64,000 nucleotides of DNA from Planctomycetota bacterium (lineage in GTDB: Bacteria > Planctomycetota > Phycisphaerae > Sedimentisphaerales > Anaerobacaceae). Location of the stretch: contig JADFMM010000005.1 in assembly GCA_022563885.1 (NCBI GenBank), positions 1 through 64,000 on the forward strand. Reading direction: 5' to 3'. Below the pieces are notes generated by a model that was not told where the DNA came from, searched no databases, and worked only from the letters and a program-made list of their open reading frames with translations. Made by a program: the position numbers and the translations under genes. Shown here piece by piece: positions 3,893 through 59,339 of the stretch. Numbering within the stretch: the stretch's first letter is position 1; each line of letters starts with the position of its first letter.

Positions 3893-3999
3893 TTCTGGCC
3901 ACGATCCTTACGGGTCAACAACCCAATGCCACGAGACCGTAACTTTATCGGCGAGAATTCCCTGGGGAATAACATGGGCCTGAATGGAGTCGCTGAAAG

Positions 4000-4080: not shown

Positions 4081-4115
4081 TATACAAGTATAGCACAAGA
4101 GGCGCCTTAAATCAA
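4075..4115 (-). promoter_or_regulatory. Promoter with palindromic operator over its -10
   Basis: Minus strand: TTGATT (4110-4115), 17-bp spacer, TATACT (4087-4092). The -10 sits inside a perfect 11-bp dyad at 4075-4098: TTGTGCTATAC, two bases, then its exact complement. A perfect dyad over a -10 is typical of a repressor operator. The loop is too short and no T-run follows, so it is a poor terminator. Confidence 0.5.
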
Positions 4116-4194
4116 GGAAAACTTCAGAGGGATTTCTGCCATTTCCTGCGGCCAAAACCCACTGGAGGCAACGCCTTTTTCTTTAAGCCAAAAA

Positions 4195-4268
4195 CGAGGC
4201 CGAAGGGACTCGAACCCTCAACCTTCGGATCGACAGTCCGATGCTCTAACCAATTGAGCTACAGCCCC
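4195..4268 (-). tRNA. tRNA-Asp (GTC)
   Basis: A complete 74-nt cloverleaf on the minus strand. The acceptor pairs GGGGCTG with CGGCCTC (two G-U pairs), and the D-arm is GCTC...GAGC. The anticodon stem TCGGA/TCCGA holds loop CTGTCGA, so the anticodon is GTC. The T-loop TTCGAGT is present. A run of five T directly follows the 3' end. No CCA is encoded. Confidence 0.95.
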
Positions 4269-4285
4269 ATTCCAAACAAAGGCGT

Positions 4286-4315
4286 ACTATACTGACCGAC
4301 TTGCCGCCCTGTCAA
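4286..4315 (-). promoter_or_regulatory. Promoter of tRNA-Asp
   Basis: Minus strand: TTGACA (4310-4315), 18-bp spacer, TATAGT (4286-4291), placing transcription start about 10 bp before the tRNA. Confidence 0.7.
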
Positions 4316-4391
4316 CTGTTTGTTGTGGTAGGACTGATCTTTTTTTGTTCATGCTCTGGGGCTATGACGGCGTTTTCAGAAGAAGCCTAGG

Positions 4392-4419
4392 TTCCGTTCT
4401 CCCCATTTGGTGATATAAT
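4392..4419 (+). promoter_or_regulatory. Probable promoter of der
   Basis: A perfect TATAAT (4414-4419) lies 59 bp before der. The best upstream hexamer is only TTCCGT (4392-4397) at a 16-bp spacer, so the -35 is weak. Confidence 0.4.
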
Positions 4420-4477
4420 TGGAGGGTTTTGAAACGGTCATCTAAGCACAAACATCAAGCGCCTAAGGAAATTAAAT

Positions 4478-5800
4478 ATGGGTTTAGCAAGTGTCGCGAT
4501 CATTGGCCGACCCAACGTGGGCAAGAGCAGTCTCCTCAATGCCCTGGCCGGAAAAATGATTAGCATTGTCGAACCTACGGCTGGGGTGACGAGAGACCGT
4601 GTCACAACACTCATCGAGATTAATGATCATTATTTCGAACTGGTAGACACCGGCGGATATGGCATTGTGGATACTGACGAACTGAGCACGCATGTGAACA
4701 GCCAGATTCATCAGGCGATCCAAAACGCGGAGTTGATCCTGTTCATGGTGGATATCCGAGAGGGGCGAGTTCCCTTAGATGAAGAACTTGCACGGCTGTT
4801 ACGTAAAGCGAATCTCAATGTGATTGGCGTCGCCAATAAGGCGGATAATGCCATGATGTTTCCAGACGCGGCTGAGTTTACCGAGCTTGGGGTGGGCGAG
4901 TTCCTATGTGTGTCCGTAAAGAACAACCTCAATAAGACTGTCCTGCTCGAACGGATTGGTGAAAGGCTCTCCCACCTCAAGAACACTCACAGGCCTCCAA
5001 CGCCTACCATGAAACTCGCCCTCGTGGGCAAACGCAACACCGGCAAGAGCACGTTGGTCAATGCCATGGCCAATTCCGACCGGGTAATCGTCAGCGAAGT
5101 CCCGGGTACCACACGCGACGCCGTGGATGTACGCATAGAGAAGGATGGCCAAACCCTCATCGTCATCGATACCGCCGGCATCCGGAAAAAGAGTAAGATG
5201 TCGGACAGCATAGAATTCTACAGCTACGTACGGGCCACCCGAGCCATATCGCGCGCAGATGTGGTCCTCTTCTTGATCGATGCGACGCTGCCCGTCTCGC
5301 AGGTGGACAAGAAGCTGGCTCACTTTATCTGCCAGGAAAACAAGAGCTGTATCATCGTCGTGAACAAATGGGATCTGGCCAAAGAGCATGCTGTCACGGG
5401 CGACTACGAGGACTACTTGAATCGAGAACTCACCGGTCTGCGCTTTGCCCCGATTGCGTTCACGACAGCGTCCCAAGGAAAGAATGTGCAGAGTCTGCTG
5501 GATCTTTCGGCGGAGATCTTTAAGCAGGGGACGACGTGGATCACGACGGGAGCCCTGAACCGTGCCTTCGATGCCATCAAGTCGGAACGGACCGGCTCGG
5601 GACGACGCAAGCATGGGTGGCCCAAGTTTTACTATGCCACCCAGCTCGCCGTCAATCCCATTACCATACTGATGTTTGTCAATAATCCCAAGCTGTTCGA
5701 TGAGAATCAGCTACGCTTTCTCTCAGGAAGGCTGCGTTCGATGTTGCCGATTCCGGAAGTCCCCCTGAGACTCCTGGCACGCTCACACCGGAGTCCGTGA
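4478..5800 (+). CDS. der: Ribosome-biogenesis GTPase Der (EngA)
   Basis: The tandem-GTPase protein Der acts in 50S ribosomal subunit assembly. Its 440 residues match the family length. The first G domain has GRPNVGKSS (about residue 10), a PTAGVTRD switch, DTGGYG and NKAD. The second has GKRNTGKST (about 186), PGTTRD, DTAGI and NKWD. The last 90 residues form the KH-like domain with the usual basic segment RRKHGWPKFYYATQ. ATG 4478 gives the canonical MGLASVAIIGRPNVGK start. All nucleotide-binding motifs are intact. Confidence 0.97.
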   Translation: MGLASVAIIGRPNVGKSSLLNALAGKMISIVEPTAGVTRDRVTTLIEINDHYFELVDTGGYGIVDTDELSTHVNSQIHQAIQNAELILFMVDIREGRVPLDEELARLLRKANLNVIGVANKADNAMMFPDAAEFTELGVGEFLCVSVKNNLNKTVLLERIGERLSHLKNTHRPPTPTMKLALVGKRNTGKSTLVNAMANSDRVIVSEVPGTTRDAVDVRIEKDGQTLIVIDTAGIRKKSKMSDSIEFYSYVRATRAISRADVVLFLIDATLPVSQVDKKLAHFICQENKSCIIVVNKWDLAKEHAVTGDYEDYLNRELTGLRFAPIAFTTASQGKNVQSLLDLSAEIFKQGTTWITTGALNRAFDAIKSERTGSGRRKHGWPKFYYATQLAVNPITILMFVNNPKLFDENQLRFLSGRLRSMLPIPEVPLRLLARSHRSP

Positions 5801-5846
5801 CGTCCGGAAGAAGCGCGGGATCTGACCGCTCAAGGAGACGAAAACC

Positions 5847-7598
5847 ATGGACACACTCCTACTCATGCTCGTCTGTTTCGGGGGCTATCTGCTCGCCTAT
5901 CACACCTACGGTCGATTCCTGGCCCGGCGTATATTCAAGCTGGTTCCCGATGCCACGGTACCGAGTCGTGCGCTGGAAGATGGAATTGACTACGTCCCCA
6001 CTAAACGGGGTGTGATTTTCGGCCACCACTTCACGTCCATCGCGGGCACAGGCCCAATCGTAGGGCCGGCGATCGGCATCATCTGGGGCTGGCTGCCGGC
6101 GATTCTCTGGATAGTCTTGGGCTCTATTTTCATGGGCGCCGTCCATGACTTCGGCGCCTTGATCGTTTCGATGCGAAATGAGGGCAAGAGCATCTCGGAG
6201 ATCGCCGCTAAGTACATCAATGGCCGGGTGCGCTTCATCTTTTTTGCCTTGGTGTTCCTAAGCCTTCTGATCGTGATCGCCATATTCGGCCTGGTGATCG
6301 CCGTGGTCTTCGCACTCTTCCCCGAATCCGTCTTGCCGGTGTGGTTGGAGATTCCCATCGCCATGATCCTGGGTGTCGCGGTCTACAAGAAAAAAGCGAG
6401 GATCTTGCCGGCCACCATCATCGCGGTAGTCGTCATGTATGTCACGGTCGGCCTGGGGGCCTACATCGAGCATGCCCATCCCGGTAGATTCCTGCTACCG
6501 GATCTGGGAGTATTGCCCGCCACCGGCCTCTGGACGATTATCTTGCTGGCCTATGCCTGGGTGGCTTCGACGTTGCCCGTGACCACCTTGCTGCAGCCGC
6601 GAGACTACATCAACGCCTGGCAACTCTTTGTGGCCATGGCGCTCCTCATCGTCGGTGTTTGCGTGGCGTCTTTCCAGGGCCTCTTGCCTATGGCCGCCCC
6701 CGCCATCAACAGACAGTTGCCCGCCGACGTCCCCAGCCTCTGGCCCTTCATGTTTATCACCATCGCCTGTGGGGCAATCAGCGGTTTTCACTCGCTGGTG
6801 GCCTCGGGCACGAGCGCCAAGCAGGTTGCCAATGAAGAGGACAGCCTCATTGTTGGGTATGGCTCGATGCTGACAGAGGGCGCTTTGGCTGTGCTGGTCA
6901 TTATCTGTGTGGGCGCCGGCATCGCCATGGCGACGGGAGAGTCCGGCCCGTCCGGTTCGAGCGCATGGCACCAACACTATGCTTCATGGTCGGGTGTGAA
7001 GGGACTAGAGTCCAAACTCAACGCGTTCATCGGTGGCGCGGCGAATATTATCGACACCCTCGGATTTCCCCGCTTCCTGGGCACCGCCGTGATGGGGGTC
7101 TTCGTGGCCTCCTTTGCCGGCACGACCCTCGACACATCCGTCCGGCTGCAGAGATACGTGGTCGCGGAACTGGCATCGGATCTAAGGCTCCCGTTTCTGA
7201 CCAACCGCTGGACGGCCACCACCTTCGCCGTCCTGACGGCAGCAGTTCTCGCCTTCGCGACTGGAGCCAATGGCGCCGGAGCGATGACCCTCTGGCCGCT
7301 GTTCGGAGCCGCCAATCAAACCCTTGCGGCGTTGGCTCTGCTGGTCACGACACTCTATTTAAGGAAGCAGGAAGGCTTGAAGTACCTGGTCACCGGGATT
7401 CCCTGTGTGATCATGCTGGTGATCACGAACTACGCCATGGTATTGAATCAGATCGGATTCATGCGGGCCGAGGATCCCAATAGACTGCTAATCACGTTAG
7501 GTGCGGTCATCTTCGGTTTGGCGCTGTGGATGACCTTTGAGGCGTTTTCTGTCTTCTTCCGTGGCACTGGGCACATGCCGAGGATAGCTAGAGCCTAG
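5847..7598 (+). CDS. cstA: CstA-family carbon-starvation/pyruvate transporter
   Basis: Polytopic inner-membrane transporter of the CstA family, whose members carry pyruvate (BtsT) or peptides during carbon limitation. The 583-residue protein has at least 14 hydrophobic segments and the N-terminal family signature GHHFTSIAGTGPIVGPA, followed by GSIFMGAVHDFGAL. It starts at ATG 5847 behind AAGGAGACG, 46 bp after der. The stop overlaps that of convergent ybbR by the bases CTAG, and no terminator is seen between them. Substrate cannot be told from sequence. Confidence 0.9.
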   Translation: MDTLLLMLVCFGGYLLAYHTYGRFLARRIFKLVPDATVPSRALEDGIDYVPTKRGVIFGHHFTSIAGTGPIVGPAIGIIWGWLPAILWIVLGSIFMGAVHDFGALIVSMRNEGKSISEIAAKYINGRVRFIFFALVFLSLLIVIAIFGLVIAVVFALFPESVLPVWLEIPIAMILGVAVYKKKARILPATIIAVVVMYVTVGLGAYIEHAHPGRFLLPDLGVLPATGLWTIILLAYAWVASTLPVTTLLQPRDYINAWQLFVAMALLIVGVCVASFQGLLPMAAPAINRQLPADVPSLWPFMFITIACGAISGFHSLVASGTSAKQVANEEDSLIVGYGSMLTEGALAVLVIICVGAGIAMATGESGPSGSSAWHQHYASWSGVKGLESKLNAFIGGAANIIDTLGFPRFLGTAVMGVFVASFAGTTLDTSVRLQRYVVAELASDLRLPFLTNRWTATTFAVLTAAVLAFATGANGAGAMTLWPLFGAANQTLAALALLVTTLYLRKQEGLKYLVTGIPCVIMLVITNYAMVLNQIGFMRAEDPNRLLITLGAVIFGLALWMTFEAFSVFFRGTGHMPRIARA

Positions 7599-35796: not shown

Positions 35797-36860
35797 GGGG
35801 TCAGAGCTTGATTAGTGATTAGTTGTTGCGTTGCGAGGAAACGTCGGTTAGCTTACCCGGCATGGCTAGGCCCTTACGCATTGAGTATCCTGGAGCGCTG
35901 CACCATGTCATCTCGCGCGGAAATGAACAGCGGCCTATCGTGAGAGACGATGGAGACCGTGCGAAACGCCTTGAATGGCTTCGCCGCACGGTTGAGACCT
36001 ATGGGTGGGATCTCCATGCCTTTGTCTTGATGACGAACCACGAACATCTCTTTTTGGAGACCCCCGAACCCAACCTCTCCTCAGGCATGCAATATCTCAA
36101 TGGCAGTTATACCAGCTATTTCAATCGGCGTTGGCGACGATCAGGTCATCTGTTCCAGGGACGATTCAAAGCCCATATCGTTGACTCCGAAGGCTATTTT
36201 CAAGTCGTCAGTCGGTATATTCATCTCAATCCAGTAAGAGCAAGAATAGTGCCGAAGCCCAATGAGTATCCTTGGAGCAGTTTTCCTGGTTATACACGAG
36301 CCACCAAGGCGTTAGATTGGATCACGTACGAACGCGTGCTCATGGACTTCGGTCCCGGCAACCGAACGACGCAAAGGCGTCGGTACCGACGCTACGTTGA
36401 AGCGGGAATTCAAGGCTCGCCCGAATACCCCTTTGACGGCGTTGTTGAAGGCTTGGTGCTGGGATCACAGGGGTTCATTGACCGGATCCGTGAGTTGATC
36501 AGTCAGCGCAGTGATGATCCGGCCGTTGTCGAAATCCACCGCCTTCGCGTACGGCCCTCTCTTGGCGATATCGCACGTGTGGCCACCCATCAGAGGAAAG
36601 CGTCATCCACTCAGTGGCGACAAGGGCGCCGCAGTGACGACGGGAGCCGCGCAGTGATTGCATTCGTCAGTCGCCGTTGGTATGGGTATCGCTGCAACGA
36701 AATTGCCGAAATGCTTGGATACACAAGTGTCTCCAGCATCAGCCGGTCTGTTCGACACGTAGAAACCAACATAGACAAGTACGCAGAACTCTTGGGCTTG
36801 CTTAAAAAGAGGTTGGCGCCGCATGCAAGAAAGGCTATTCACTAATCAAGCTCTGACCCC
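35797..36860 (+). mobile_element. Y1-transposase (RAYT-type) element with 22-bp terminal inverted repeats
   Basis: A 1,064-bp unit bounded by a perfect 22-bp inverted repeat: 35797-35818 (GGGGTCAGAGCTTGATTAG plus TGA) and its exact complement at 36839-36860. It holds a single transposase gene. The right repeat contains the stop codon of that gene. No target-site duplication was identified. Confidence 0.85.
35862..36845 (+). CDS. REP-associated tyrosine (Y1, HUH) transposase
   Basis: 327 residues from ATG 35862 (MARPLRIEYPGALHHVISRG, the standard RAYT start). The HUH metal site is H60-E-H62 in MTNHEHLFLE, where most have NHxHLL, and the catalytic Tyr is Y119 in YIHLNPVRARIV. A C-terminal extension (about 220-320) looks like a DnaA-type helix-turn-helix: RAVIAFVSRRWYGYRCNEIA then GYTSVSSISR. 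It is intact, so the element may be active or recently so. Confidence 0.9.
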   Translation: MARPLRIEYPGALHHVISRGNEQRPIVRDDGDRAKRLEWLRRTVETYGWDLHAFVLMTNHEHLFLETPEPNLSSGMQYLNGSYTSYFNRRWRRSGHLFQGRFKAHIVDSEGYFQVVSRYIHLNPVRARIVPKPNEYPWSSFPGYTRATKALDWITYERVLMDFGPGNRTTQRRRYRRYVEAGIQGSPEYPFDGVVEGLVLGSQGFIDRIRELISQRSDDPAVVEIHRLRVRPSLGDIARVATHQRKASSTQWRQGRRSDDGSRAVIAFVSRRWYGYRCNEIAEMLGYTSVSSISRSVRHVETNIDKYAELLGLLKKRLAPHARKAIH

Positions 36861-37214: not shown

Positions 37215-37826
37215 TTGTTGGTGACGATCGACAGTTCGGGTGCTGCAGCCGGTTGGAACTGCGGGAGATTGAAGTTGGCCGCCTTATTACCGCAAGAGAA
37301 GATTTTAGTGCGACAGTTCAATAAGGGCGATATTGGTGCTCTGCGCCAGATATACGCCCAGTACAAGGTGGATCTGACGATACTGGCAACGGCGCTGCTC
37401 TTTGACAAGGCTTTAGCAGAAGATGTGGTGCATGAAGTGTTCGCCCGGTTGCTGGATACAACGCGTAAGATCCGTATCAACAGCAGTTTACGAGGGTATC
37501 TGTTGCGGGCCGTGGCCAATGGGGCCCGTAACGTGAATCGATCTGATAGAAGGAAGGATCTTGATCAGGACCTTTGTGGGGCAGACTGCTTTCCTCTCGC
37601 AGAGTCGCCGGAGTATTCCGCGATCTTCAAGGAACAACGTGAAAAACTAGTCTCTGCGTTGCCAGAACTGCCCTATGAACAACGAGAAGTGCTTCTCCTG
37701 CGCCATTTTGGCGGTCTGCGTTTTCAAGACATTGCCAAGAGCCAAGGGGTTTCTGTCAGCACCGTTCAAGGCCGCTACCGCTACGGCCTGGAAAAGCTGC
37801 GGTCTTCAATGGGAGGTGACCTATGA
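37215..37826 (+). CDS. ECF-type RNA polymerase sigma factor
   Basis: 203 residues. Region 2 (about 33-100) has FNKGDIGALRQIYAQYKVDL, KALAEDVVHEVFARLL and LRGYLLRAVANGARN. Region 4 (about 145-195) has LPELPYEQREVLLLRHFGGLRFQDIAKSQGVSVSTVQGRYRYGLEKLR. No sigma 3 region, hence extracytoplasmic-function type. Start is one of TTG 37215, TTG 37218 or GTG 37221. Its stop overlaps the next gene start (ATGA), so the two should be made together, as sigma/anti-sigma pairs often are. Confidence 0.9.
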   Translation: MLVTIDSSGAAAGWNCGRLKLAALLPQEKILVRQFNKGDIGALRQIYAQYKVDLTILATALLFDKALAEDVVHEVFARLLDTTRKIRINSSLRGYLLRAVANGARNVNRSDRRKDLDQDLCGADCFPLAESPEYSAIFKEQREKLVSALPELPYEQREVLLLRHFGGLRFQDIAKSQGVSVSTVQGRYRYGLEKLRSSMGGDL

Positions 37827-40800
37827 GGCCGACGATTGACAATCTTCTCAAGAGTTTAGAGACGCAACCCAGCGAGAGCCTGGAGCAAAGAATGAACGAT
37901 CTCTTTGCATCTCAGCCTGTCATGCGTTTGGGCATTTGGAGAAGAATCGTGCAAAGTCCTATCGCCAGATTTGCCATGGCTGCAGTGTTCATTGCCGGTG
38001 TCTTTGTCCTAGCTAGTTATTTGCGGGGAGACCATGGTGTTACACCGCCCCCCAATGCACCTGTTGCCCATGAAACTCAGCCGCTTGATAGCAATCAGAC
38101 AACTGCGTTGACGCAGTTACAGCCAGTTCAAACAGAACTTGAACAGGCCAGAGTGTTTTTCGAGCAAGCCGATACTGATGGCCTCTTGGCTTTACTGGAA
38201 ACGGGCGGAAATCTGACCCAGATTACGGTGGCGCGTTATTTGGGACAGCTTGGAGACGAGAAGGCGATTCCTCCCTTGCAGACCTTTGCCGAGCAATGGC
38301 AGGGGAGTGAAACAGGCAATCCCTTCCAAACAGCTATTGAGAGAATTGAGCAACAAGGTCAGAGCAATCCTCCACCGCTAGACCCGAATCAACCCAACGC
38401 CAAGACTACACCACCGATCGACGGATCTAGCGAGCCAAAGGCAGAGACGATCATCACTGGAATGGTTCTCGATGCCGACGGTTTGCGCCCTATTTCTGGC
38501 GCTACTGTTTCGTGTATGACTGGGAATAGAACGACTACAGATGCCCAAGGTCAGTTTACCCTCTCTGTAAAGAGGGATCACCCTGGAGGAGCCCGTGTCC
38601 GGGCGCTGGCATCGGGCTACGCCACACAGCGAGTCAATGTCAGTGTTGGGAAGGGCATGACACAAAGGCTCGACTTTAAGCTGGGACCTGGCTTCAAGGT
38701 GGTTGGTACCGTGAGGGACATTCACGGTCAACCTATCAAGGCAGCCACTATTCGCGTTTCTGGTATGGGATTTGGGGTAGGGGGTATCTATACCGGCGCT
38801 GATGGCAGGTTTATAGTTGAAGGTCTTAATCCGAATGAGGAATCCTATAGGCTGTACGCAGAGCACCCGGGCTATGTCGAATCCTTTGTCCACCTGCCCC
38901 CAACGTCTGCAGGACAGATCTGCAATCGTGATATCGTCTTAGCGCAGGGAATAACGTTATTTGGCCAGGTCACCGATTGGCAGGGAAAACCGATTTCAGG
39001 CGTCCAGGTCGGTCGCAATCGGTTCGCTCAGGCCAAAACGATCTCAGATACCAATGGCAGGTACAGTTTGAAGAATGTCCCGAGAGATGAACGTTTTCTT
39101 TGGGCGGCCCATGAGGAGCATGGCCTGTTGGTACAGTCGGTGTATTTGTCTGGTGATGCTTCTGAGTTTCGTATCGATCTGCTGCTTGACAAGCCCCATC
39201 CCTTGCATGGACAGGTTTTAGATCAAGCGGGCGATCCGGTTCCTGGTGTCAGCGTAGGTATTCACGCGTACGGAGGAGTGTCCCACCTGTGGCGAAAACG
39301 CCGACTAAGCGATAGCCAAGGGAATTTCGTGATACCCAATGCACCGAAACAGGGTGCGTTAACACTAAGTGTCTATAAGGAAGATATCGCCAGCGAAACA
39401 TATGAGATCAATCTGGGTGAGCAAGGGTGCACGCTCACGGTGTCGTATGTGGGGTGCATCTACGGTAAGGTTGTTGATAATGCAACGGATGAGCCAATTC
39501 GAAGGTTTATTGTGAAGCTACGTTCCGAGCAAGGGGGGTACCCCGCAAGCTGGGCCGATGGCCTCCGCATTAGCTCTGATCAGGGCTTCTTTGGTACGGA
39601 TGGTGCAAAGCTTGCCCTGTACCGGGATTTTAGTGTGACCGTCATTGCGGACGGTTACAAACACTTAGACGTTCTACCCGTGAAGGTGCAGCCCACCTCT
39701 TCTGACCCAAATCGCGTGCTGTTTCGTTTGGAAAGAGCTTCCGTGATGGCGGGGCGCGTGGTGGACAAACAGGGAAGACCGATTTCTGGGGCGAAGATTG
39801 CCGTATTCTCTAGGGCCAATTTGGATACGCGATCAGATTGGCTTCAGGTGGTAACCGATGAAGTTGGTTTGTTCACGCTCTCTGGTATGGATCCCGAGCA
39901 GCACTGTCTCCATGTTACTGCCGAGGGGTTTGTTGCCTTTGCCGGCTTGCTCGAGGAATTGGTGATCGGACAGACGCAGCTAAGAGACATTGTGCTTGGC
40001 GTAGGATCGCATATTTGGGGCCAGGTATTCGATGATCACGGTCAACCCGTTGAGGATGCAAAGGTAACGGCCCACAACAATAGCGCTATTGCAGATAGAG
40101 AATCCATGCGTAAGGCTCTCAATGGTCGCATGCCAAGTCTGGCTCCGCGAACGAGAACAAACCAAGTCGGATACTATGAGCTGCATGATGTTTCGATTGG
40201 TCGTGTCGGCGTCTCCGTCATGACTCCGAAAACGAATCAACGACTTGCCTATGAGAACATTATTACGAATCCCGAGGACTCCATCGAATTGAACTTTGGC
40301 AATGAAGTCGGCTTTACCGTAGAGGGTATCGTCCGAGTTCTCATAGTGCCGCTCGAAGGCGCAAACGTGAGATTGGACACGAAAGAAGGAATACGCCGGA
40401 GTAAGTCAGCGCAAACAGATTCCTCAGGGAAATTCAGTATCAGTGGTTTGTCCCCGGGGAGCTATCAACTGGGTGTGCGATCTTGGCCCCAGCCTGGAAG
40501 TTCGGCGCGTGAAAAGCGTCATTTGTATGTGCTCCTTGACGTGCACCAGGACTTGAGCTTGGACATTGAGATGGAGGAGAAAACTGTCCTGGAAGTTGGG
40601 AGTTGTTCTGTTCGCGGCCGGATTCCACTTTCGTTGAGAACCCAAGCAGATGCGACGCAGATTCGAGCCACACGCTCAATTGATATTGGTCCTAATTCTA
40701 AAGAGGGCGGGTATCCCTGGGAAAATGTGCCAGCAGAGTTTAAGGTACGACCTGATGGGACATTTGTTGGCGAGCAGCTTGGGCCGGGTATCTACCGACT

Positions 40801-41536
40801 GGTTCTGTCTAGGGATCAAAGAATTGTGGCTATATCTGATGCTATTGTTCTTTCCGAAGGAGAAAACCTATCTGACGTTGGTTTTACCATGGGGGCGGGC
40901 GAGGTTTCTATTCGGGTCATTGATGCGGCGACCGGGCAAGGCATTCCCAACGCTAGCTTTCAACTCATCAACGACATGGGAATCTCCTTCAGAGCTCAAG
41001 AATTTGTACCTGAGGAAAAGCATGCGATGCATGTCGATAGTCAGGGACAGTGTCTAATTGATCGGCTTCCCGAGGGCCATTATCACACTAAGGCAACCGC
41101 GTCTGGATACTTGCTAAATGAATCTCAAGACGGGATAGTTCAAATGGGGAGCCTTACGCCCCTGGTGGTGTCATTAAATCCTGCTGCCAGTGTTGATTTT
41201 GAAATCTCGGATACACTCTTACAGGATGTGTCGGGCAATTATATCCTTGTGGACTGCCGAATAACGGAGACTGATACGCAGCGCGTTCTGCAAAACAAGA
41301 ATCTCTATACCACCTCCGACCGCCATACGTATGGCATGCGTTTGACCGGGCAAGGTGACTGGGCGTCACATAATCCCATTGCTTTGCCCGAAGGCCACTA
41401 TACGATTGCCTACACCGTACACTCAATGACGATTAAAGACAAATCGCAAGCAGGGCCTAGCAAGAAACTGGCCCAGGGCGAAACCACTGTTACCTGTCTG
41501 CAGAATCAAACGACGACAATCTCAATCTTTGAATGA
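37823..41536 (+). CDS. Giant membrane-anchored protein with carboxypeptidase-regulatory-like repeats
   Basis: 1,237 residues. The N-terminal 45 residues are cytoplasmic (MRPTIDNLLKSLETQPSES), then one membrane helix (about 47-68), a helical segment (about 95-180) and at least eight Ig-like carboxypeptidase-regulatory domains. These carry the repeated pattern GxVxDxxGxPIxGAxV: DADGLRPISGATVSC, DIHGQPIKAATIRV, DWQGKPISGVQVG, DKQGRPISGAKIAV and DDHGQPVEDAKVTA. Translation is coupled to the sigma gene. The cytoplasmic head could bind the sigma factor and the external domains could sense a surface ligand; this is inference. No protease domain seen. Confidence 0.8.
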   Translation: MRPTIDNLLKSLETQPSESLEQRMNDLFASQPVMRLGIWRRIVQSPIARFAMAAVFIAGVFVLASYLRGDHGVTPPPNAPVAHETQPLDSNQTTALTQLQPVQTELEQARVFFEQADTDGLLALLETGGNLTQITVARYLGQLGDEKAIPPLQTFAEQWQGSETGNPFQTAIERIEQQGQSNPPPLDPNQPNAKTTPPIDGSSEPKAETIITGMVLDADGLRPISGATVSCMTGNRTTTDAQGQFTLSVKRDHPGGARVRALASGYATQRVNVSVGKGMTQRLDFKLGPGFKVVGTVRDIHGQPIKAATIRVSGMGFGVGGIYTGADGRFIVEGLNPNEESYRLYAEHPGYVESFVHLPPTSAGQICNRDIVLAQGITLFGQVTDWQGKPISGVQVGRNRFAQAKTISDTNGRYSLKNVPRDERFLWAAHEEHGLLVQSVYLSGDASEFRIDLLLDKPHPLHGQVLDQAGDPVPGVSVGIHAYGGVSHLWRKRRLSDSQGNFVIPNAPKQGALTLSVYKEDIASETYEINLGEQGCTLTVSYVGCIYGKVVDNATDEPIRRFIVKLRSEQGGYPASWADGLRISSDQGFFGTDGAKLALYRDFSVTVIADGYKHLDVLPVKVQPTSSDPNRVLFRLERASVMAGRVVDKQGRPISGAKIAVFSRANLDTRSDWLQVVTDEVGLFTLSGMDPEQHCLHVTAEGFVAFAGLLEELVIGQTQLRDIVLGVGSHIWGQVFDDHGQPVEDAKVTAHNNSAIADRESMRKALNGRMPSLAPRTRTNQVGYYELHDVSIGRVGVSVMTPKTNQRLAYENIITNPEDSIELNFGNEVGFTVEGIVRVLIVPLEGANVRLDTKEGIRRSKSAQTDSSGKFSISGLSPGSYQLGVRSWPQPGSSAREKRHLYVLLDVHQDLSLDIEMEEKTVLEVGSCSVRGRIPLSLRTQADATQIRATRSIDIGPNSKEGGYPWENVPAEFKVRPDGTFVGEQLGPGIYRLVLSRDQRIVAISDAIVLSEGENLSDVGFTMGAGEVSIRVIDAATGQGIPNASFQLINDMGISFRAQEFVPEEKHAMHVDSQGQCLIDRLPEGHYHTKATASGYLLNESQDGIVQMGSLTPLVVSLNPAASVDFEISDTLLQDVSGNYILVDCRITETDTQRVLQNKNLYTTSDRHTYGMRLTGQGDWASHNPIALPEGHYTIAYTVHSMTIKDKSQAGPSKKLAQGETTVTCLQNQTTTISIFE

Positions 41537-41657: not shown

Positions 41658-41900
41658 GAACCGTAGAATATCGAGCAAGGAACAGCAGAATATCGAAGGA
41701 TAGTGAGTTTGATCGCGTGGAACGGTTTATCGACTCGCCATCGAAACTCGACCCTCTGATTCAGGAGAACGACGAATTGATGTCAATCTTAGTGGTCAGC
41801 GTTAAGACGGCAGAGAAGAATCTGAACCAGGATTTGATAAGATTGCTTATGAGGCGTAGTAACTTCACCATTGGACATTCGTTGTTCGATATTCTTCGGT
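41658..41900. repeat. Inverted AATATCGAAC-type repeats around a protein-gene scrap
   Basis: Left arm 41658-41681 and right arm 41877-41900 are inverted copies matching at about 21 of 24 bases, built on AGAATATCGA(G/A)CAA. Between them, 41717-41820 encodes LDPLIQENDELMSILVVSV followed by KTAEKN, similar to the tail of four-helix-bundle (23S rRNA intervening-sequence) proteins. The flanks 41537-41657 and 41901-42009 show no gene. Confidence 0.5.
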
Positions 41901-42009
41901 TTATTCTGGTAGATTTCGAAGAGCGAGGAGGGCTAAGGGGTCGTTCATCAAAAAAAGTAAGCAATTTCGTGCCCAGCTTTATCCCTGTTCATCTCCAGAT
42001 CTCCGGTCC

Positions 42010-42335: not shown

Positions 42336-44077
42336 TCACAGCTTAGACAGCACGCCAGGGAAGACCTTGTAAAACATCAGATAGGCCATCGCCAGCGTCA
42401 AAATCAAATTGAAGGCTTGCCCACAGAGATAGAGCAGCAGGGGCTTGCCGCCTTTGAAATGCGTCTTCAATTCTCTAAAATTGGTCGCCAAGCCGATGCT
42501 GACAAAGGCCAGGCAAAAGAACCCGCCACGGAAGGCCTTGGACCATCCTCGAATCACACCATGATCAATCAGCGTATATCCCAGGTCGCTGCCAATGGTG
42601 TGGTATATGCCTGAAAACACGATCGAGGCCAGAATAAACCCGAGCACAAACTTGGGAAAACGGATCCAAATCTCAGCAGCGGAGACCCGCCGACCTGGGA
42701 TACGGTCGACCTTGGTGGCCCAGTACAGGGCCACCGCAAAAGCGATGACACCAATCAGGATGTTCTGGATCATCTTAATGGTTGCGGCCACGTACAAGGC
42801 GCGGTCACCCAGGAACTCTCCCGCCGCCGCCACCGCCCCGGTGGCATCGATGGTCCCACCGAGCCAAGCACCGCCCAGGACCTCGGGCATCCCGACGGCC
42901 TTGATCACCGCCGGCATCACGACCATCATGATCGACGTGAACACCATGGACAGTCCCACGGCCAGGGTCAATTCTTCCTTCTTGGCTCTGCACGCCGCCG
43001 CCGTTGCGATTGCCGCAGATACGCCACATACCGACATATCGGCAGAGATGGTGATATTCAAGGTCTTGGAGGGGATCCTCAATATCCTCTGGCCAAACCA
43101 ATAGGTGCTGATCAGAACCACCGGCGTGACGACCCAGGCCACCCATAGCCCGGGGGCGCGATTAACAGGATCTTCCCGAACAGTATCTCCGCCCCGAGCA
43201 GCACCAGGCCGGTTTTGATGTAGTACTCGGTTGCCACCGCAGGACGGGCCCATCGAGGCGTTCCGAGGGTATTGCTGATCAGCAGGCCTAAGAGAATGGC
43301 CCAGGCCGCATAGCCGATCCCCCGTTCTTTCATCATGCTGTTCGCACCGATGGTGTAGGCCAGGACACCGATGAGAAACACAAAGAAAAAACCGGGCAAA
43401 AACCTCCTGAGGGACGTTCCCATGTAATGACGGCCAAACCCGAAGAAGACCGCCAGCATCCCGGCCAACCCGATCAAGCCCGGCACACGATTGTATGAAG
43501 AAGGGCTTACCTTCTTCTTGGCCTTGGCTTCAAGGGATTGTGCCGATCGCCAGGCATCGATCGCCTCGACTGAACTCGCATTGTGGGTCTGATCTTGAAA
43601 CTCCATTTCCGTGGCGAGTTGCTCCGCCGACTGGGCGCTTTGATAGGTTCTCTCGACCTCGGCCTGAGCCTGGTCGTAGGCATCCCGGTCGGCTTGGGAC
43701 ACTGTTTTGGGTCTCTGGACAAAAGCCCAAAACGGATTGCCTTTCCAGGACTGCGGGGTTGCGGTAAAGGCCTGTATCCTTTTCCCCAGGGGCGTGCCCG
43801 TTGCCTTCAGCTTTCGCTTGGCCTCGAGCGCCTCGTGCCAATCTAATGTCTTAAACGGGGCCCGGTCGGATGCGGCTCGTAGACGATCGTTGAGTTCCCG
43901 AATCTTCGCATTCGTTTCCTGGATTGATAGGGAGCCGAAGAAATAGAGCACAAGTCCAAGCCCAAGTAATCCAAATGCCAACCAGATCGCCCAATAGTCC
44001 TCCTTCTTCCAGAGATCGGACCAGTCCCACGCTTGTCGCATCGCCGCACGGTTGTGGTCTTGTGATGAATCGGACAT
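42336..44077 (-). pseudogene. yeiH: YeiH-family putative sulfate exporter, split by frameshift
   Basis: From ATG 44077 (AAGGA upstream) one frame runs MSDSSQDHN to [20 protein letters not shown]; the continuation [21 protein letters not shown] to the stop at 42336 is in another frame. The break lies in five G at 43152-43156 (C on the coding strand); six would restore one protein of about 580 residues. The family hallmarks are kept: [52 protein letters not shown] and [16 protein letters not shown] long coiled-coil insert follows the first helix, larger than in typical 350-residue homologues. Transport of sulfate is only a family suggestion. Confidence 0.85.
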
Positions 44078-44110
44078 GCCTGGGTTCCTTTTGCAGATTG
44101 GAAAGATCTG

Positions 44111-44139
44111 TACATAATCCAAAATGAAAGGCTCGTCAA
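44111..44139 (-). promoter_or_regulatory. Promoter of the YeiH gene
   Basis: Minus strand: TTGACG (44134-44139), 17-bp spacer, TATGTA (44111-44116), about 30 bp before the start codon. Confidence 0.55.
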
Positions 44140-44233
44140 TGCTAGCCCGAGTCGCCAGCAGGGCAATCGCACATACACCTGGGCAGACGTTAATGCCCGT
44201 TTTTTCTAACCATCGCCGGGGTCTCACGGGGGT

Positions 44234-50215: not shown

Positions 50216-52039
50216 TCAGTAGTCGGTCGCCGCCGGGGAGGTTCTCGAGATCGGGACGCCGGCCCCGGATACGTAGTCGACCACGCTTGGTCCGTTGGAA
50301 TTCTCGTCGACTTTCTGGAGGAAGGTGTAAAAGGCGCCGCTAAGAACTTTCCCCGCCTTGTCGAGGAAATGTCCTTCCAACGCCACCCGATTGCCTTTCG
50401 TTAGCTGAATATCGAAGGTGACATAGGTGTCTTCGGGGGCGGTGGGCACAGTGGTCGCCTTTCCGTCGAGAAGGAGGCAGGCTTGGGCGACCGGGCGGGA
50501 TTCGACCCTCCTCAAGCTGCCGTTCAGGGGGACGTTCGCCTCCGGGTGGAACATATACATCGAAACGCGGTAGTTGCCACCGGTCTCGACCTGGAGATTC
50601 CAGTGACCCGGTGTGTCCTGTTTCGCGAGATTTCCCCAGTTATCCGCATAGGATCCCGTCCAGTTGCAGGAGGACAACCACGTGATCGCCTCATGGGGCG
50701 TGCCGACGCTCACAAAATTCGTCTGCTCCATGATGGGCCGGGTCCCGGCGACCCACTGCTCGTAAAAACGGCGCATCGTGCGAACGACGCCGGGATGCCG
50801 GTCGTAGAGATCGATCTTCTGTCCCGGATCGGTGGAGACATCATGGAGTTCCTTGCCATCGACGAGTCGCCATTTCTTCCAGAGCACGGCTCCGGCCCAT
50901 GGCTTGAACGTTGCCCGGTACTGGATCACCACCTTGCGATCGTCGAGCGCGTTTTCGTCGCCCTCGAGGAGGGGGCGCAGGCTGTGACCATCGAACGCAG
51001 TGCCGCCTGTGCCCCGCGTCAACCCGCAAAGATCGATCAGGGAAGGAAGCAGATCGGTGCTGTGGGTGAGCGCGTCGATGTCGCGTCCCTCGTCATAGCC
51101 GCCGGCGGGCCAGCGGAGGAAAAACGGCACGCGATGGCCACCATCGTATTGGGAGGTTTTATGCCCCCGCATTCCGGCATTGAAGACGGTGTGGCCTCTC
51201 ACCGTCCCGTTGTCGCTCATGAAAATGAGGATGGTGTTTTCCCTTAATCCCTTCTTCTCCAGAAAGGCATCCAGCCTGGCGACGTTCTCGTCGATGTTGG
51301 CGATCATGCCGAAGAAGTTGGGAATGACCCCTCCCTGGTCCCGGTAGGGCTTCGCGTACTTCTGGGGAACCACGAAGGGCGAGTGAGCCGCCGTGGTGGG
51401 GAGGTAGACAAAGAAGGGCTTCTCCTGTTTCTCGATCCATGCCATCGCCTCCCGGAAGAAGACATCGGTGTTGTAACCCTCGAAACGCTTCAGCTCGTTG
51501 TTGTGCCAATAGTGGTCATCAAAGGCGTCGTTCTCCCAGTGCTCCGCGAGTGAACCGATCCCCCAGGCCTTATTGTGAAGCGATACTTCAAAGCCACGGT
51601 CATGGGGCCGAAAGGGATAGTTGTCACCCAGATGCCACTTCCCGAAATGCCCGGTGGCATAGCCGTTTTCCCTGAAGAACTGTGGCATCATCGGCAACTC
51701 GCGCCTGGGCAGGGAGCGGCCCTCACAAACCGCGGTGGCGCCGTTGCGAAAAGCATCGATCCCCGTCATCAACTCGCCTCGGGTGGGCGTGCACATCGGA
51801 GCGACGTGGAAGTCGGTGAAGCGAATGCTCTCGTCGCGCAGTGCATCGAGCTTGGGCGTTTTCAAGACTGGGTTGCCGTGGGCTGAAAGGTCCCCGTAGC
51901 CCTGATCATCGGTGAGGATGAAGATGACGTTCGGCTTTGCGAAGCCGAATGCGGGCGGGACGAGGGCAAGGGCGAAGGCGAGGCAGAAGAGGCTCGGGCA
52001 GAGCCGCGGAGCCGCAGAGACTATTGTGAGTTTTTTCAT
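50216..52039 (-). CDS. Exported sulfatase with C-terminal beta domain
   Basis: 607 residues from ATG 52039, GAGGA eight bases upstream. Signal peptide about 1-33 (ending PPAFGFA). Formylglycine-dependent type I sulfatase: FILTDDQGYGDLSAHG with metal Asp pair, the maturation motif C83-TPTR (CTPTRGELMTG), GHFGKWHLGD and MSDNGTVRGH. Residues about 470-600 form a beta-rich domain (NWTGSYADNWGN, YRVSMYMFHPEANVPLNG) often fused to such arylsulfatases. The cleaved substrate is not predictable. Requires a formylglycine-generating enzyme encoded elsewhere. Confidence 0.92.
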   Translation of the reverse strand: MKKLTIVSAAPRLCPSLFCLAFALALVPPAFGFAKPNVIFILTDDQGYGDLSAHGNPVLKTPKLDALRDESIRFTDFHVAPMCTPTRGELMTGIDAFRNGATAVCEGRSLPRRELPMMPQFFRENGYATGHFGKWHLGDNYPFRPHDRGFEVSLHNKAWGIGSLAEHWENDAFDDHYWHNNELKRFEGYNTDVFFREAMAWIEKQEKPFFVYLPTTAAHSPFVVPQKYAKPYRDQGGVIPNFFGMIANIDENVARLDAFLEKKGLRENTILIFMSDNGTVRGHTVFNAGMRGHKTSQYDGGHRVPFFLRWPAGGYDEGRDIDALTHSTDLLPSLIDLCGLTRGTGGTAFDGHSLRPLLEGDENALDDRKVVIQYRATFKPWAGAVLWKKWRLVDGKELHDVSTDPGQKIDLYDRHPGVVRTMRRFYEQWVAGTRPIMEQTNFVSVGTPHEAITWLSSCNWTGSYADNWGNLAKQDTPGHWNLQVETGGNYRVSMYMFHPEANVPLNGSLRRVESRPVAQACLLLDGKATTVPTAPEDTYVTFDIQLTKGNRVALEGHFLDKAGKVLSGAFYTFLQKVDENSNGPSVVDYVSGAGVPISRTSPAATDY

Positions 52040-55697: not shown

Positions 55698-57221
55698 ATG
55701 GTTCGAATTCAAATGACGCTGGTCACGCTTGGCTTGATGATTTCTGGGTCCAGTCTCGGAGCGGCTGAACGTAACATCATTTTCTTTATCACCGATGACG
55801 AGAGCCCGACCTTGGGCTGTTATGGGGATCAGGTGGCCGTGACGCCACAGATCGACGCCTTGGCGGCTGATGGCACGCTCTTTCGCAATGCATTTGCCAC
55901 CACCGCCAGTTGCAGCGCGAGTCGTTCGGTCGTGATGTCCGGGCTGCACAACCACAAGAATGGGCAGTACGGGCATCAACATCACTTCCATAAATTCGCT
56001 TCGTTCTATAACGTCGTGAGTCTGTCGCTGCCGCGTGTCTTGCAGAATGCCGGTTACCGAACGGCACAGATTGGCAAGTATCACGTCGCGCCCGAAGAGG
56101 TGTATCGCTTTGAAACCTACCTCAAGGGCAACGGACGCAGTACGGTCCAGATGGCCAATGCCAGCCGGGCGTTCCTGACGGACGGGACGGATCCTCGACC
56201 CTTCTTCCTCTATTTTGCCACCAACGACCCACACCGTGGTGGGGGCACCGACAAGACCTCGAAACTTGTCCTGAAACCCGACTTGTTTGGCAACAAGCCC
56301 AACGGGGGCGCCTATCCGGGGATTAAGGAAGTCTTTTTCGATCCGGCCCAGGTGAACATTCCCCCCTTTCTTCCCGACACGCCAGAGACGCGGGAAGAAC
56401 TGGCACAGTACTACCAATCTTGCGCTCGCATCGACCAAGGTCTGGGACGATTGATCGAGATACTCAAGGAAGCCGACCTCTACGACAAAACCATGATCGT
56501 CTTCACATCCGACCATGGCATGGCCTTTTCCGGAGGGAAAACCACGGTATACGAAGGCGGTCTGCAGGTCCCCTTTGTGGTACGCAATCCCTATGAGAAG
56601 AAACGCGGCGTTGCGTCCAATGCCATGATCAGCCACATTGATATCACGCCTTCCCTCTTGGACTTTGCCGGCGGCTTGGACGCGAAAACGAATGGCCCCA
56701 AGAAATGGATTGAACCCAACAGCTATTGGAAGCAACGGGGTGAAAACCTCAAGGAGAACCGTAGCGGTGGCCACGAATTCCGTCGCTATCACGGTAAATC
56801 CTGGGTGTCAATCCTGGGCCAACCGGACGCCGAACACTGGGATACCATCTTCGCCTCCCACACCTTCCATGAGATCCAGATGTACTATCCCATGCGCGTG
56901 GTGCGCGACAAGAAATACAAACTGATCTGGAACATCGCCCACGGTCTGCCCTACCCCTTTGCTTCCGACCTGTGGAAGGCCTCCAGCTGGCAGGCGCAGT
57001 TCCGTAAGGGCATGGATGCGCCCTATGGTTTGAAGACCGTGGGTGAATACATACACCGCTCGGCCTTTGAGCTCTTCGACATGCAGGAGGATCCATGCGA
57101 AACGAAAAACCTCGCCAATGATCCCAGACACCGCGCTCTGCTTGCCGAATATCAGGCGAAGCTCAAGGCCTTCCAAAAGCAGATGGATGATCCCTGGATT
57201 ATGAAGTGGGATTACGAGTAG
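55698..57221 (+). CDS. Exported sulfatase
   Basis: 507 residues from ATG 55698 with GGAGG six bases upstream. Signal peptide about 1-23. Sulfatase features: IIFFITDDESPTLGCYGD (metal Asp pair), C72-SASR maturation motif (CSASRSVVMSG), TAQIGKYHVAPE, FTSDHGMAFSGGKTTVYEGG and a C-terminal DLFDMQEDPCETKNLA-like end (ELFDMQEDPCETKNLA). Related to heparan N-sulfatase-like sulfamidases by the last motif and by length; substrate not certain. Confidence 0.92.
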   Translation: MVRIQMTLVTLGLMISGSSLGAAERNIIFFITDDESPTLGCYGDQVAVTPQIDALAADGTLFRNAFATTASCSASRSVVMSGLHNHKNGQYGHQHHFHKFASFYNVVSLSLPRVLQNAGYRTAQIGKYHVAPEEVYRFETYLKGNGRSTVQMANASRAFLTDGTDPRPFFLYFATNDPHRGGGTDKTSKLVLKPDLFGNKPNGGAYPGIKEVFFDPAQVNIPPFLPDTPETREELAQYYQSCARIDQGLGRLIEILKEADLYDKTMIVFTSDHGMAFSGGKTTVYEGGLQVPFVVRNPYEKKRGVASNAMISHIDITPSLLDFAGGLDAKTNGPKKWIEPNSYWKQRGENLKENRSGGHEFRRYHGKSWVSILGQPDAEHWDTIFASHTFHEIQMYYPMRVVRDKKYKLIWNIAHGLPYPFASDLWKASSWQAQFRKGMDAPYGLKTVGEYIHRSAFELFDMQEDPCETKNLANDPRHRALLAEYQAKLKAFQKQMDDPWIMKWDYE

Positions 57222-57287: not shown

Positions 57288-59339
57288 TCAAGGCAACCTT
57301 TTCAAGCGGATATCCTTGACCTTTATTAGCATGGCCGGCCCGCGGTGAAGCTGCAACGCGATGATGCCGGATTTGGCCGCCTTCTCCTCTTGGCGGTCGG
57401 TGATGTCGACCGTCACCACACCATTGATCTTATGGACGAGTCGAGTGCCCTTCGCCCTGATGCTGTACTCGTTCCACTGGGCAAGGTCGATCGGTGTGGC
57501 TTCTCCCAGGGTCTCTGTCACCCGGTTATTTCCGTCCGGTTCAACGACGACCCTCGTCGGCCGCTGGGCCATGATGCCGCGACCACGCTCCTCGTAGAGC
57601 ATCCCGGCATAGGATGGATTGGGATGGATGTCCATCTGGTATCCGCCCACCACGAATGCGCCCCGCTCGGGGAACTTGCGGGAGCGATACTGGACCCCCG
57701 AATTGTTGTTGCCGACCATGCTGAGTTTCAGAGTCAGTTCGAAATTCTGCACGTCAGCGCCCTGCCAGATGAGAAAGGTGTTCGATGATATGGGATTCTC
57801 ATCAGAGGTTGCGCCGTGGATGACGCCGTCCTTGACGGACCATAGCTTGGGGTCTCCCTTCCAGCCTGCGAGGTCCTCGCCATTGAATAGGGATTCCCAT
57901 TTGGCTGCCTCTTCTTTCTCTTGCGCCAGCATGTTGCCGGACGGAAACTTCTCCCAGGAGTAGGCCCCACCGTAGGCGTCCCGCAACTCGTTCGTTCGTT
58001 TGCGCATGCTGTGGAGCGCTGCCGCGTGCGCTGAGTCCCCCACCAGGTTCCTAAGCTGGTCGGGATCGGTATCCAGGTCATGCAAGTACTCATACACGGG
58101 CGTCTGCTCGAAGTAACGGGCGTAGACATAGCGACCCGAGCGGACGCCTTCCCACTTCGGTATGCGGGTGTCTGCGTTCATGAGATGTTCACAGAAGAAG
58201 TCTCTCCGCCAGGTCTGGACGGTTTTCCCCCCGACCCATTCTGCGAGACTGTGTCCTTGATAGGATTCGGGCACGGTCACGCCGGCGTAGTCCAGCAGTG
58301 TTGCGGGGATGTCAATGTTGAGTGCCAGGGGTTCGAGGAGGCGGCCGGGCCGCCCGGCGTGGGAGCGGGGGTCGTATACGATCAAGGGGACACGGAGCGA
58401 TTCCTCGTAGTGTGACCACTTACCGGCAAAGCCACGCTGTCCCATGTAGTAGCCGTTGTCACCGGAGTAGATGATCACGGTGTTGTCCGCCAGGCCCTGC
58501 TTCTCCAAGGCAGCGAGCAATCTGCCGACCACTCGGTCAATACCGCTAAGCATGCGATAGTAGGCCCGCATGTTTTTCTGGTACTTCTCCGGTGTGTCCC
58601 AGCGCCAGAAGAAACGTTCCCGGTTTATAGACTTCTTCAGAAAGACCGGATGTCGTTCGTAGATGTCGGGATCGGAGAATTTCGGTTGGGGGATAGTGAC
58701 GTCGTCATACATGCCGTCGACCGCCTTGGGCCAGGGAAAGTGATTCTCCTTGTCACTGTCTTCCGCGTGCGAGGCATTGAAGCTGACCGACAGGCAGAAG
58801 GGCCGTTCCCTTGACTGGGCATCGATGAACTCAATAGCACGATCGCCCGCGATCTCCGTGAGGTGACGCAGACTGCCGTCTTTCTGTTTCTTGAAGTAGG
58901 GGTTGCGATTCAGGGGACGGAAATAGTCGAACATTTCCTCTTTCGCGTTGCCGATCACACGGACGCCGAACTTGCCAACGAAGCCCGTCTGGTACCCGGC
59001 CTGACGCAGCAGAGCGGGGTAGCTCCGGTCGGTGTATTCCTTGGCGATCGGTGGTGTACCGAAGGTAAACCTGTGCGTTCGCTCATACAGTCCCGTGAGG
59101 AGCGAGGCCCGACTCGCTGCGCAGATGGAGGTGGTCACGAAGGCATTTCGGAAGCGCACCCCCCGCGCTGCCAGAGAGTCGATGACGGGGGTCTTGACGA
59201 TGGGATGGCCCGCACAGCCCAGCGTATCGTTGCGCTGGTCGTCTGTCAGGATGAAGACCAAATTGGGACGAGAGGCCGCAACACCGGCACGCGTGCCGAT
59301 CAGCAGCAAGACGATTATGAGTAGTGTTTTTGCTTTCAT
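57288..59339 (-). CDS. Exported sulfatase fused to a DUF1080 (3-keto-disaccharide hydrolase) domain
   Basis: 683 residues from ATG 59339. Signal peptide about 1-22. The sulfatase domain (about 25-460) has LVFILTDDQRNDTLGC, C73-AASR (CAASRASLLTG), TGFVGKFGV and IYSGDNGYYMGQRGF. The DUF1080 domain (about 475-683) has WESLFNGEDLAGWKG, WSVKDGVIHG, FELTLKLSMVGNNNSGVQYR and YQMDIHPNPSYAGMLYEE. DUF1080 enzymes cleave 3-keto-glycosides, so the fusion suggests combined desulfation and sugar-bond handling; activity of the fused form is inference. Confidence 0.92.
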   Translation of the reverse strand: MKAKTLLIIVLLLIGTRAGVAASRPNLVFILTDDQRNDTLGCAGHPIVKTPVIDSLAARGVRFRNAFVTTSICAASRASLLTGLYERTHRFTFGTPPIAKEYTDRSYPALLRQAGYQTGFVGKFGVRVIGNAKEEMFDYFRPLNRNPYFKKQKDGSLRHLTEIAGDRAIEFIDAQSRERPFCLSVSFNASHAEDSDKENHFPWPKAVDGMYDDVTIPQPKFSDPDIYERHPVFLKKSINRERFFWRWDTPEKYQKNMRAYYRMLSGIDRVVGRLLAALEKQGLADNTVIIYSGDNGYYMGQRGFAGKWSHYEESLRVPLIVYDPRSHAGRPGRLLEPLALNIDIPATLLDYAGVTVPESYQGHSLAEWVGGKTVQTWRRDFFCEHLMNADTRIPKWEGVRSGRYVYARYFEQTPVYEYLHDLDTDPDQLRNLVGDSAHAAALHSMRKRTNELRDAYGGAYSWEKFPSGNMLAQEKEEAAKWESLFNGEDLAGWKGDPKLWSVKDGVIHGATSDENPISSNTFLIWQGADVQNFELTLKLSMVGNNNSGVQYRSRKFPERGAFVVGGYQMDIHPNPSYAGMLYEERGRGIMAQRPTRVVVEPDGNNRVTETLGEATPIDLAQWNEYSIRAKGTRLVHKINGVVTVDITDRQEEKAAKSGIIALQLHRGPAMLIKVKDIRLKRLP

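Follow-up and report, generated by a model that had tools for sequence, protein, structure and literature searches.

How is one to read a sigma factor gene whose stop codon runs into the start of a gene for a 1,237-residue membrane protein, when that protein carries no anti-sigma domain detectable by Pfam? This question is raised by a locus on the forward strand of the planctomycetotal contig JADFMM010000005.1 (assembly GCA_022563885.1), of which positions 1 to 64,000 were analysed (hereafter the window, 64,000 nucleotides). Based on comparisons with related loci, we propose that an extracytoplasmic function (ECF) sigma factor is very probably paired here with a cognate anti-sigma factor that is anchored in the membrane and carries its own outer sensor. 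These comparisons support the cognate pairing, the co-evolution of the sigma factor with the cytoplasmic head of its partner, the place of the leading covarying sigma residues and the modular swapping of sensors; beyond these we infer translational coupling, direct binding, inhibition rather than activation, a contact with sigma4, proteolytic release, a ligand and a set of target genes. An earlier reading made from the DNA letters (the original prediction) had likewise seen a one-protein anti-sigma factor and sensor here, possibly controlling nearby sulfatase genes; its core idea gained from the head/sigma co-evolution with opposite charges, the paralogous pairs, the zinc-motif head on a homologous sensor and the sigma fusions described below, and its proposal of sulfatase control found no support.

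The open frame of the sigma factor spans 37215-37826 on the forward strand from TTG 37215, the start given in the original prediction; sigma residue numbers below are counted from this codon, and 20 is to be subtracted for numbering from TTG 37275. The true start is probably TTG 37275, since GGGAG, a ribosome-binding-like site as read from the sequence (37263..37267), lies 7 nt upstream of it and since a GGAG...GTTGGCC stretch covering this start is conserved in two relatives (L155 and L197), with much lower similarity above it. The gene would then encode 183 residues (37275..37826); the partner gene spans 37823-41536. Pfam identifies Sigma70_r4_2 (46.5 bits; cut-off 25.7) and Sigma70_r2 (29 bits; cut-off 24) in the frame and NCBIfam identifies TIGR02937 (79.3 bits; cut-off 42.9); having sigma2 and sigma4 only, without a Pfam match to region 1 or 3, and a length in the range of about 180-200 residues, the protein has the make-up of the ECF family, its closest relatives being 61% identical. 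Upstream, the alignment with L155 and L197 shows nothing above the ribosome-binding site that is clearly conserved as a block and would mark a conserved promoter, and a scan limited to sigma-70-type promoters, of which the ECF consensus was not part, returned 3 promoter-like sites against 4.6 expected. At the other end of the gene the sigma TGA (37824-37826) overlaps the partner ATG (37823-37825) in an ATGA (37823..37826), as originally noted, and a ribosome-binding-like GGGAGG, read from the sequence within the sigma gene (37811..37816), ends 6 nt ahead of the partner ATG. The overlap points to translational coupling of the two genes.

The partner protein begins with a cytoplasmic head, residues 1-43 (37823..37951), a candidate short anti-sigma domain with two predicted helices (5-13 and 17-29), followed by a basic stretch and a single membrane helix at about residues 46-67 (37958..38023), for which the hydropathy peak lies at 42-60 and the modelled helix at 46-67. 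Beyond it stands a juxtamembrane helical domain of residues 93-180 (38099..38362), which is weakly HEAT-like (HEAT_PBS and HEAT_2 below cut-off), is modelled at a pLDDT of 78-93 from residue 101 onward, is alignable in 11 chosen related partners, and had gone unmentioned in the original prediction. The presumed sensor is an array of carboxypeptidase-regulatory-like beta domains at residues 208-1102 (38444..41128), in which PF13620 matches eight stretches (E=5.5e-79), SpaA matches residues 1027-1101 and about ten repeat starts are readable by eye; the C-terminal residues 1103-1237 (41129..41536) give weak matches only and belong to no confident family. The short head, the one membrane helix and the eight or more outer repeats had thus been correctly described, but not the nature of the repeats: residues 1-346, when modelled, resemble the transthyretin-like domain of carboxypeptidase D (5aq0_A) with a TM-score of 0.80 by target length, so that the label "Ig-like" is wrong and the repeats are carboxypeptidase-regulatory-like by PF13620 and transthyretin-like in this model. 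The lack of a recognisable zinc-binding anti-sigma domain was confirmed, in that the 43-residue head contains neither Cys nor His and no anti-sigma domain was found in the partner by Pfam; a Pfam search of the partner at E up to 1 likewise returned no FecR domain.

Related loci were drawn from part of several similarity-search hit sets, together with 24 of at least 80 named sigma loci; they were picked by similarity of the sigma factor or the partner and are not a random sample. Among the matches listed for at least 80 named loci, the 24 closest to the sigma factor are 36-61% identical and come from metagenome-assembled genomes (MAGs) labelled Sedimentisphaerales, Phycisphaerales, Phycisphaerae or Planctomycetota, with one labelled Spirochaetes; the remaining 56, 25-35% identical and from many phyla, were left out of further analysis. 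The fetched loci of both batches contain 182 distinct related sigma frames, and after 13 long ones (fused or extended, counted by subtraction) were set aside, 152 of the remaining 169 are followed at -30 to +60 nt by a same-strand protein with a membrane helix, 94 of these 152 at exactly -4, the same 4-nt overlap as in the window. The other 17 comprise nine without a partner in this range and eight whose partner has no membrane helix by our rule, some of them owing to a wrong choice of frame (L032, L197). Proteins behind related sigma factors in these loci, often with the ATGA overlap, usually start with a conserved type of head, M[KR]PxxxIxxLIKxLxxxTSxxxDxRVLxDxLxALExS...WRxIMKSxxTKLAAAAVII, and a profile of head plus membrane helix matches 90 of the 125 next frames of the first batch at E<1e-3, many of these being members of its training set. 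The outer parts behind such short heads vary widely, from 130 to over 1,200 residues (some cut by contig ends), and the carboxypeptidase-regulatory-like family occurs in only 4 of 55 short-head partners, that of the window included. A short-head pair with a 48% identical sigma factor also stands on the contig binned as Spirochaetes (Zod_Metabat.857; L198), which may reflect a binning error or a transfer.

Across the 152 pairs the similarity matrices of sigma factor and head correlate with r=0.70, a value reached by none of 1000 permutations (maximum 0.13), against 0.13 for the sigma factor and the outside, which drops to 0.03 once the head is allowed for; within the 97 pairs of the window's own sigma group the corresponding values are 0.54 and 0.14. 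Along the partner, in the 96 pairs whose outer part has 300 residues or more, the correlation with the sigma factor is 0.65 for head residues 1-25, 0.58 from residue 26 to the membrane helix, 0.09 for the membrane helix itself and 0.002-0.12 for six outer stretches of 50 residues. Because the correlation breaks at the membrane helix, inside one gene, it supports a reading of sigma factor and head as one exchangeable cassette, with sensors swapped between cassettes, although linkage could explain part of it. Individual homologs of the window's outer part accord with such swapping: a protein of genome G028 is 37% identical to it over 1169 residues and has a head with HxxxCxxC, the two sigma factors being 25% identical over 129 residues; a protein of G001 is 35% identical over 767 residues and has a third kind of head (sigma factors 28% over 154); and in G016 the repeats, 36% identical over 380 residues, stand behind a sigma factor in a single frame that runs off the contig. 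Conversely, the partner of the 61% identical sigma factor in L155, a protein of 643 residues, has no Pfam match, so that the sensor appears to have changed even between such close sigma factors. A splitting of the pair in relatives, which the original prediction had named as evidence against itself, is therefore found for the sensor part, which goes with other sigma factors in G028 and G001, and not for the head, which stays with its sigma factor in the two closest relatives (L155, L197).

Covariation of single residues was computed within the window's sigma group, taken as the 97 pairs that score 175 or more and lack a zinc motif; nearly all of them have short heads, L125 at least having another head. 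Four column pairs, given as sigma x head in window numbering, exceed the maximum of 60 shuffled pairings (0.159): 51x21 (0.412), 73x26 (0.263), 56x12 (0.207) and 135x23 (0.198). At 51x21, opposite charges occur in 70 of the 97 pairs, three of them reversed (Glu in the sigma factor, Arg in the head), and like charges in none, against 12.2 expected and a minimum of 5 in 10,000 shuffles; after correction for the tree it ranks first among 7,000 pairs (p=1.8e-7; Bonferroni limit 7.1e-6). The window itself has Lys51 and Glu21, which are complementary and form the sole Lys/Glu pair of the 97 (Lys/Asp is the commonest, with 52), and His73 and Asp26, the commonest combination at those columns (48 of 97). 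A co-change of 73x26 on the tree with H/Q classes (p=5e-9) was not relied on, as the classes were chosen after the data had been seen. Sigma residues 51, 73 and 56 align with residues 30, 51 and 35 of Escherichia coli RpoE, and sigma 135 with RpoE 121. The contacts shared by four sigma/anti-sigma structures in Table 2 of PMC7406223 include RpoE 31, 35 and 51, which lie opposite helix 4 and the H3-H4 linker of the anti-sigma domain, and do not include RpoE 30 and 121; 15 of 171 sigma columns map to this contact list. The three top covarying sigma positions hence fall at, or directly beside, the docking surface of known anti-sigma factors. Furthermore, head positions 12, 21 and 26 follow the same order as the RseA residues given there (48; 51; 55-59), and based on this order the second helix of the head may take the place of an RseA-type helix 4.

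Several observations weigh against this interpretation. The model gives the two helices of the head little confidence (pLDDT about 50-57). The sigma/outside correlation of 0.13, though weak, also exceeds all 1000 permutations (maximum 0.09), and two of the six outer stretches lie slightly above their permutation maxima. With tree correction the best of 20 shuffled pairings reached p=3.3e-7, close to the value of 51x21, while 73x26 ranks 8th (p=8.7e-5) and misses the Bonferroni limit; when charge classes alone are followed on the tree, 51x21 is just 6th of 3,403 pairs. The fourth pair, 135x23, maps to RpoE 121, which is no listed contact, and among the 15 best tree-corrected pairs 73x26 alone falls at a listed contact residue; no pair between the first head helix and sigma4 rose above the shuffled maximum in the 97 pairs. 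The window's own head is, in addition, a divergent member of the short-head family on sequence: when scored with a head-only profile from which it and L155 had been left out, it receives 0.0 bits, a score equalled by 232 of 1731 reported shuffles (2000 made), and a profile of head plus membrane helix gives it 31.7 bits, equalled by 124 of 1000 head-shuffles. We assign it to the family through its relatives L155 and L197 and through the two covarying positions. L155 (genome G033) keeps the ATGA overlap, its head aligns with that of the window from MRP to QP with a score of 64 (best of 2000 shuffles 43), and against the family profile it reaches 39.6 bits (maximum of 1000 shuffles 31.1); L197, on the contig of a named MAG, has a sigma factor again 61% identical and, after the ATGA, a head of this type as well. 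When the window and L155 were together compared with the family, profile against profile, the probability came to 98%, a value set aside because the comparison included the membrane helix.

How strongly, then, does the evidence favor an anti-sigma factor over other kinds of partner? Co-evolution speaks for pairing and probably for contact and is silent on the sign of the effect, and the N-terminal parts of some FecR-like proteins act as positive sigma partners; the head could accordingly chaperone, anchor or activate its sigma factor instead of inhibiting it. We consider this improbable, because the sigma residues that lead the covariation lie at or beside the surface blocked by known anti-sigma domains and because the homologous sensor in G028 bears a zinc-motif head of the ZAS type, a type that is inhibitory in studied cases. 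Carboxypeptidase-regulatory-like repeats are frequent in surface proteins, and head and sigma factor are adjacent on the DNA, so that linkage alone would also yield correlated trees, a point that counts against our own proposal as well; the partner might thus be a surface or adhesion protein that is merely co-transcribed with the sigma factor, or is one of its targets, with the trees agreeing through gene neighborhood. Such a reading would have to accommodate complementary charges next to a known docking surface, a correlation that falls at the membrane helix even though head and outside share one gene, and the fusion of a homologous sensor to a sigma factor in G016, and we regard it as very improbable, more so than a positive partner.

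Control of the nearby sulfatase and polysaccharide genes, which concerns the targets of the pair, appears only slightly less improbable to us than a positive role of the head. Sulfatase genes do occur in the window (51023-51934, 55770-56672 and 58278-59267), and two fused paralogs of the pair in the same genome (on contigs C55 and C110) each adjoin one. However, PF00884 has 145 matches in the 6.5 Mb of this genome, about one per 45 kb (some of them fragments of a single gene, with 150 of 175 candidates scored), which makes such neighbors common; the nearest sulfatase lies about 9.5 kb from the pair; and the loci with homologous sensors L117 (9.3 kb) and L118 (7.2 kb) show no sulfatase among their listed frames when judged by eye, without a profile search. 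This part of the original prediction is hence unsupported.

Taking the pair as a sigma factor with its anti-sigma sensor, we propose that coupled translation would produce both proteins in step and that, at rest, head residues 1-43 would sequester the sigma factor at the membrane and cover its RNA-polymerase-binding face. The second helix of the head would sit on this face of sigma2 (regions 2.1/2.2), in the place taken by helix 4 in class I domains and by helix 2 in CnrY, and the first would probably reach sigma4. The outer helical domain and the repeat array would sense a ligand or a mechanical state and thereby trigger release, most likely, as we assume, through regulated intramembrane proteolysis; in systems that have been studied, release usually comes about through proteases that cut in and outside the membrane. 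Candidates for a site-2 protease, sought through Peptidase_M50, gave five matches at E<=0.001, of which three are fragments of a single frame, and are uninformative, as the family was also found in 14 of 14 control genomes. That the outer repeats sense polysaccharide or a surface, as originally suggested, would be a guess.

Among known systems, the pair resembles a CnrY-like short head placed on an RsgI-like one-protein sensor. A short, zinc-free, two-helix anti-sigma domain is known from CnrY, of class II (PMC4598750, PMC7406223), and the window shares with CnrY/CnrH of Cupriavidus metallidurans (PDB 4CXF) a short zinc-free head, here with two predicted helices, and one membrane helix, the cytoplasmic part of fewer than 50 residues ahead of a single membrane helix being the layout of class II; the last helix would, by expectation, again lie on sigma2. 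CnrY differs in having a separate sensor, CnrX (PMC4598750), whereas the window partner carries its sensor on the same chain, and the short heads differ in forming an expanded family found mainly in one order. Nor was a sequence relation to CnrY detected: a PDB sequence search with the head profile gave chance-level matches only (best E=0.15), and CnrY is absent from its 18 sequences up to E=10. To class I (RseA, RsiW, RskA, ChrR; ZAS) the window head is likened by the presumed docking at, or directly beside, the sigma2.1/2.2 surface that class I uses and by head positions ordered as the linker H3-H4 and helix 4, but it measures about 43 residues and has neither the HxxxCxxC often found in that class nor its four-helix domain of about 100 residues. 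RsgI proteins have a short inner part, a membrane helix and large outer domains. The RsgI/SigI systems of Clostridium thermocellum are one-protein anti-sigma biomass sensors in many paralogous copies (PMC12203970, PMC4711584), and we see a comparable one-protein, multi-copy organization here; the window pair nevertheless falls outside the RsgI family, its sigma factor being of the ECF type and not SigI, its partner having no RsgI domain among its Pfam matches, and the outer repeats being carboxypeptidase-regulatory-like. Finally, ECF sigma factors fused to membrane and outer domains are known as ECF48, ECF52 and ECF53 (for example SCO4117), which are actinobacterial and have zinc domains (PMC8999054); like the fusions of G016 and of this genome they join the sigma factor via a membrane helix to an outer sensor, unlike the two overlapping genes of the window.

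The original prediction had proposed a search for paralogous pairs in the genome, and these were found. In the window's genome (G000; 6.5 Mb on 470 contigs), C355 carries a second pair with a long carboxypeptidase-regulatory-like partner, C241 a pair whose partner has a zinc-finger-like head (zf-HC2 at 21.3 bits, below the cut-off of 22.2), and C458 two short-head pairs. Sigma factor, membrane segment and carboxypeptidase-regulatory-like repeats stand in one frame on C55 (L040:4316-8371), C110 (L042:2384-6214) and C44 (L047:4350-7274), and are split over two frames on C307 (L043:5943-7277 and 3389-5974). A head profile of 70 positions (E<=1e-4) has matches in 85 of 118 genomes of the window's order, up to 32 per genome and about 500 summed over the 118 sampled genomes; a scan of the class found matches in 21 of 198 genomes, 17 of them in the order, and a scan of the phylum in 4 of 294, all four in the order. 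No more than 20-50 candidates were scored in each genome, so that matches may have been missed, and the hits include some sequences from which the profile itself had been built. On these counts short heads appear to be found mainly in one order and rarely outside it. Pfam has no match for the window head and sporadic, weak ones for other heads (best E=0.009; 49 heads, 25 of 35 families listed), and NCBIfam matches NF052375, "anti-sigma factor", weakly in 2 of 49 heads (best E=7e-4) and 4 of 55 full proteins (best E=2e-4), one inspected match scoring 13.8 bits against a cut-off of 100. Titles and abstract openings in the literature yielded no paper on the short-head family, although the sigma group may well figure in large ECF reclassifications or surveys of Planctomycetes.

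More tentatively, and leaning slightly toward doubt, we posit that the short heads constitute a separate, lineage-specific class of anti-sigma domains, in which the sigma-plus-head cassette would serve as an interchangeable output module of one Planctomycetota order, with genomes holding up to dozens of orthogonal locks, frequently arranged in tandem, with shuffled outer sensors, and with specificity set largely by the charge pair of sigma 51 and head 21. If true, this would give a function to an unnamed N-terminal domain and turn anonymous membrane proteins into predicted anti-sigma sensors; it would also offer a large number of natural sigma/anti-sigma paralogs, with a residue pair predicted to set their specificity, for studying the evolution of orthogonality and for independent gene switches, and would suggest how uncultured Planctomycetota link many outer cues to transcription. 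In five loci of relatives, 7.8-18 kb long (L176, L190, L192, L291 and L292), four or five same-strand sigma/partner pairs, not all with short heads, stand in tandem; such arrays would favor swapping of outer parts by recombination.

A few features of the immediate surroundings are also recorded. Just upstream of the sigma gene lies a gene for an IS200-like transposase of the Y1_Tnp family (35823-36845, forward strand). Just downstream of the pair, positions 41860-41905 form the core of an interspersed repeat that is matched 28 more times in the genome (40 of 53 candidates scored); most of these matches cover about 30-50 bases and are 84-93% identical, and five reach about 100 bases. Beyond it, on the reverse strand at 42336-44227, a gene for a membrane protein of the PF03601 family (Cons_hypoth698) looks split, its downstream frame matching profile positions 88-303 only and an overlapping upstream frame reading, by eye, like the membrane-spanning first part.

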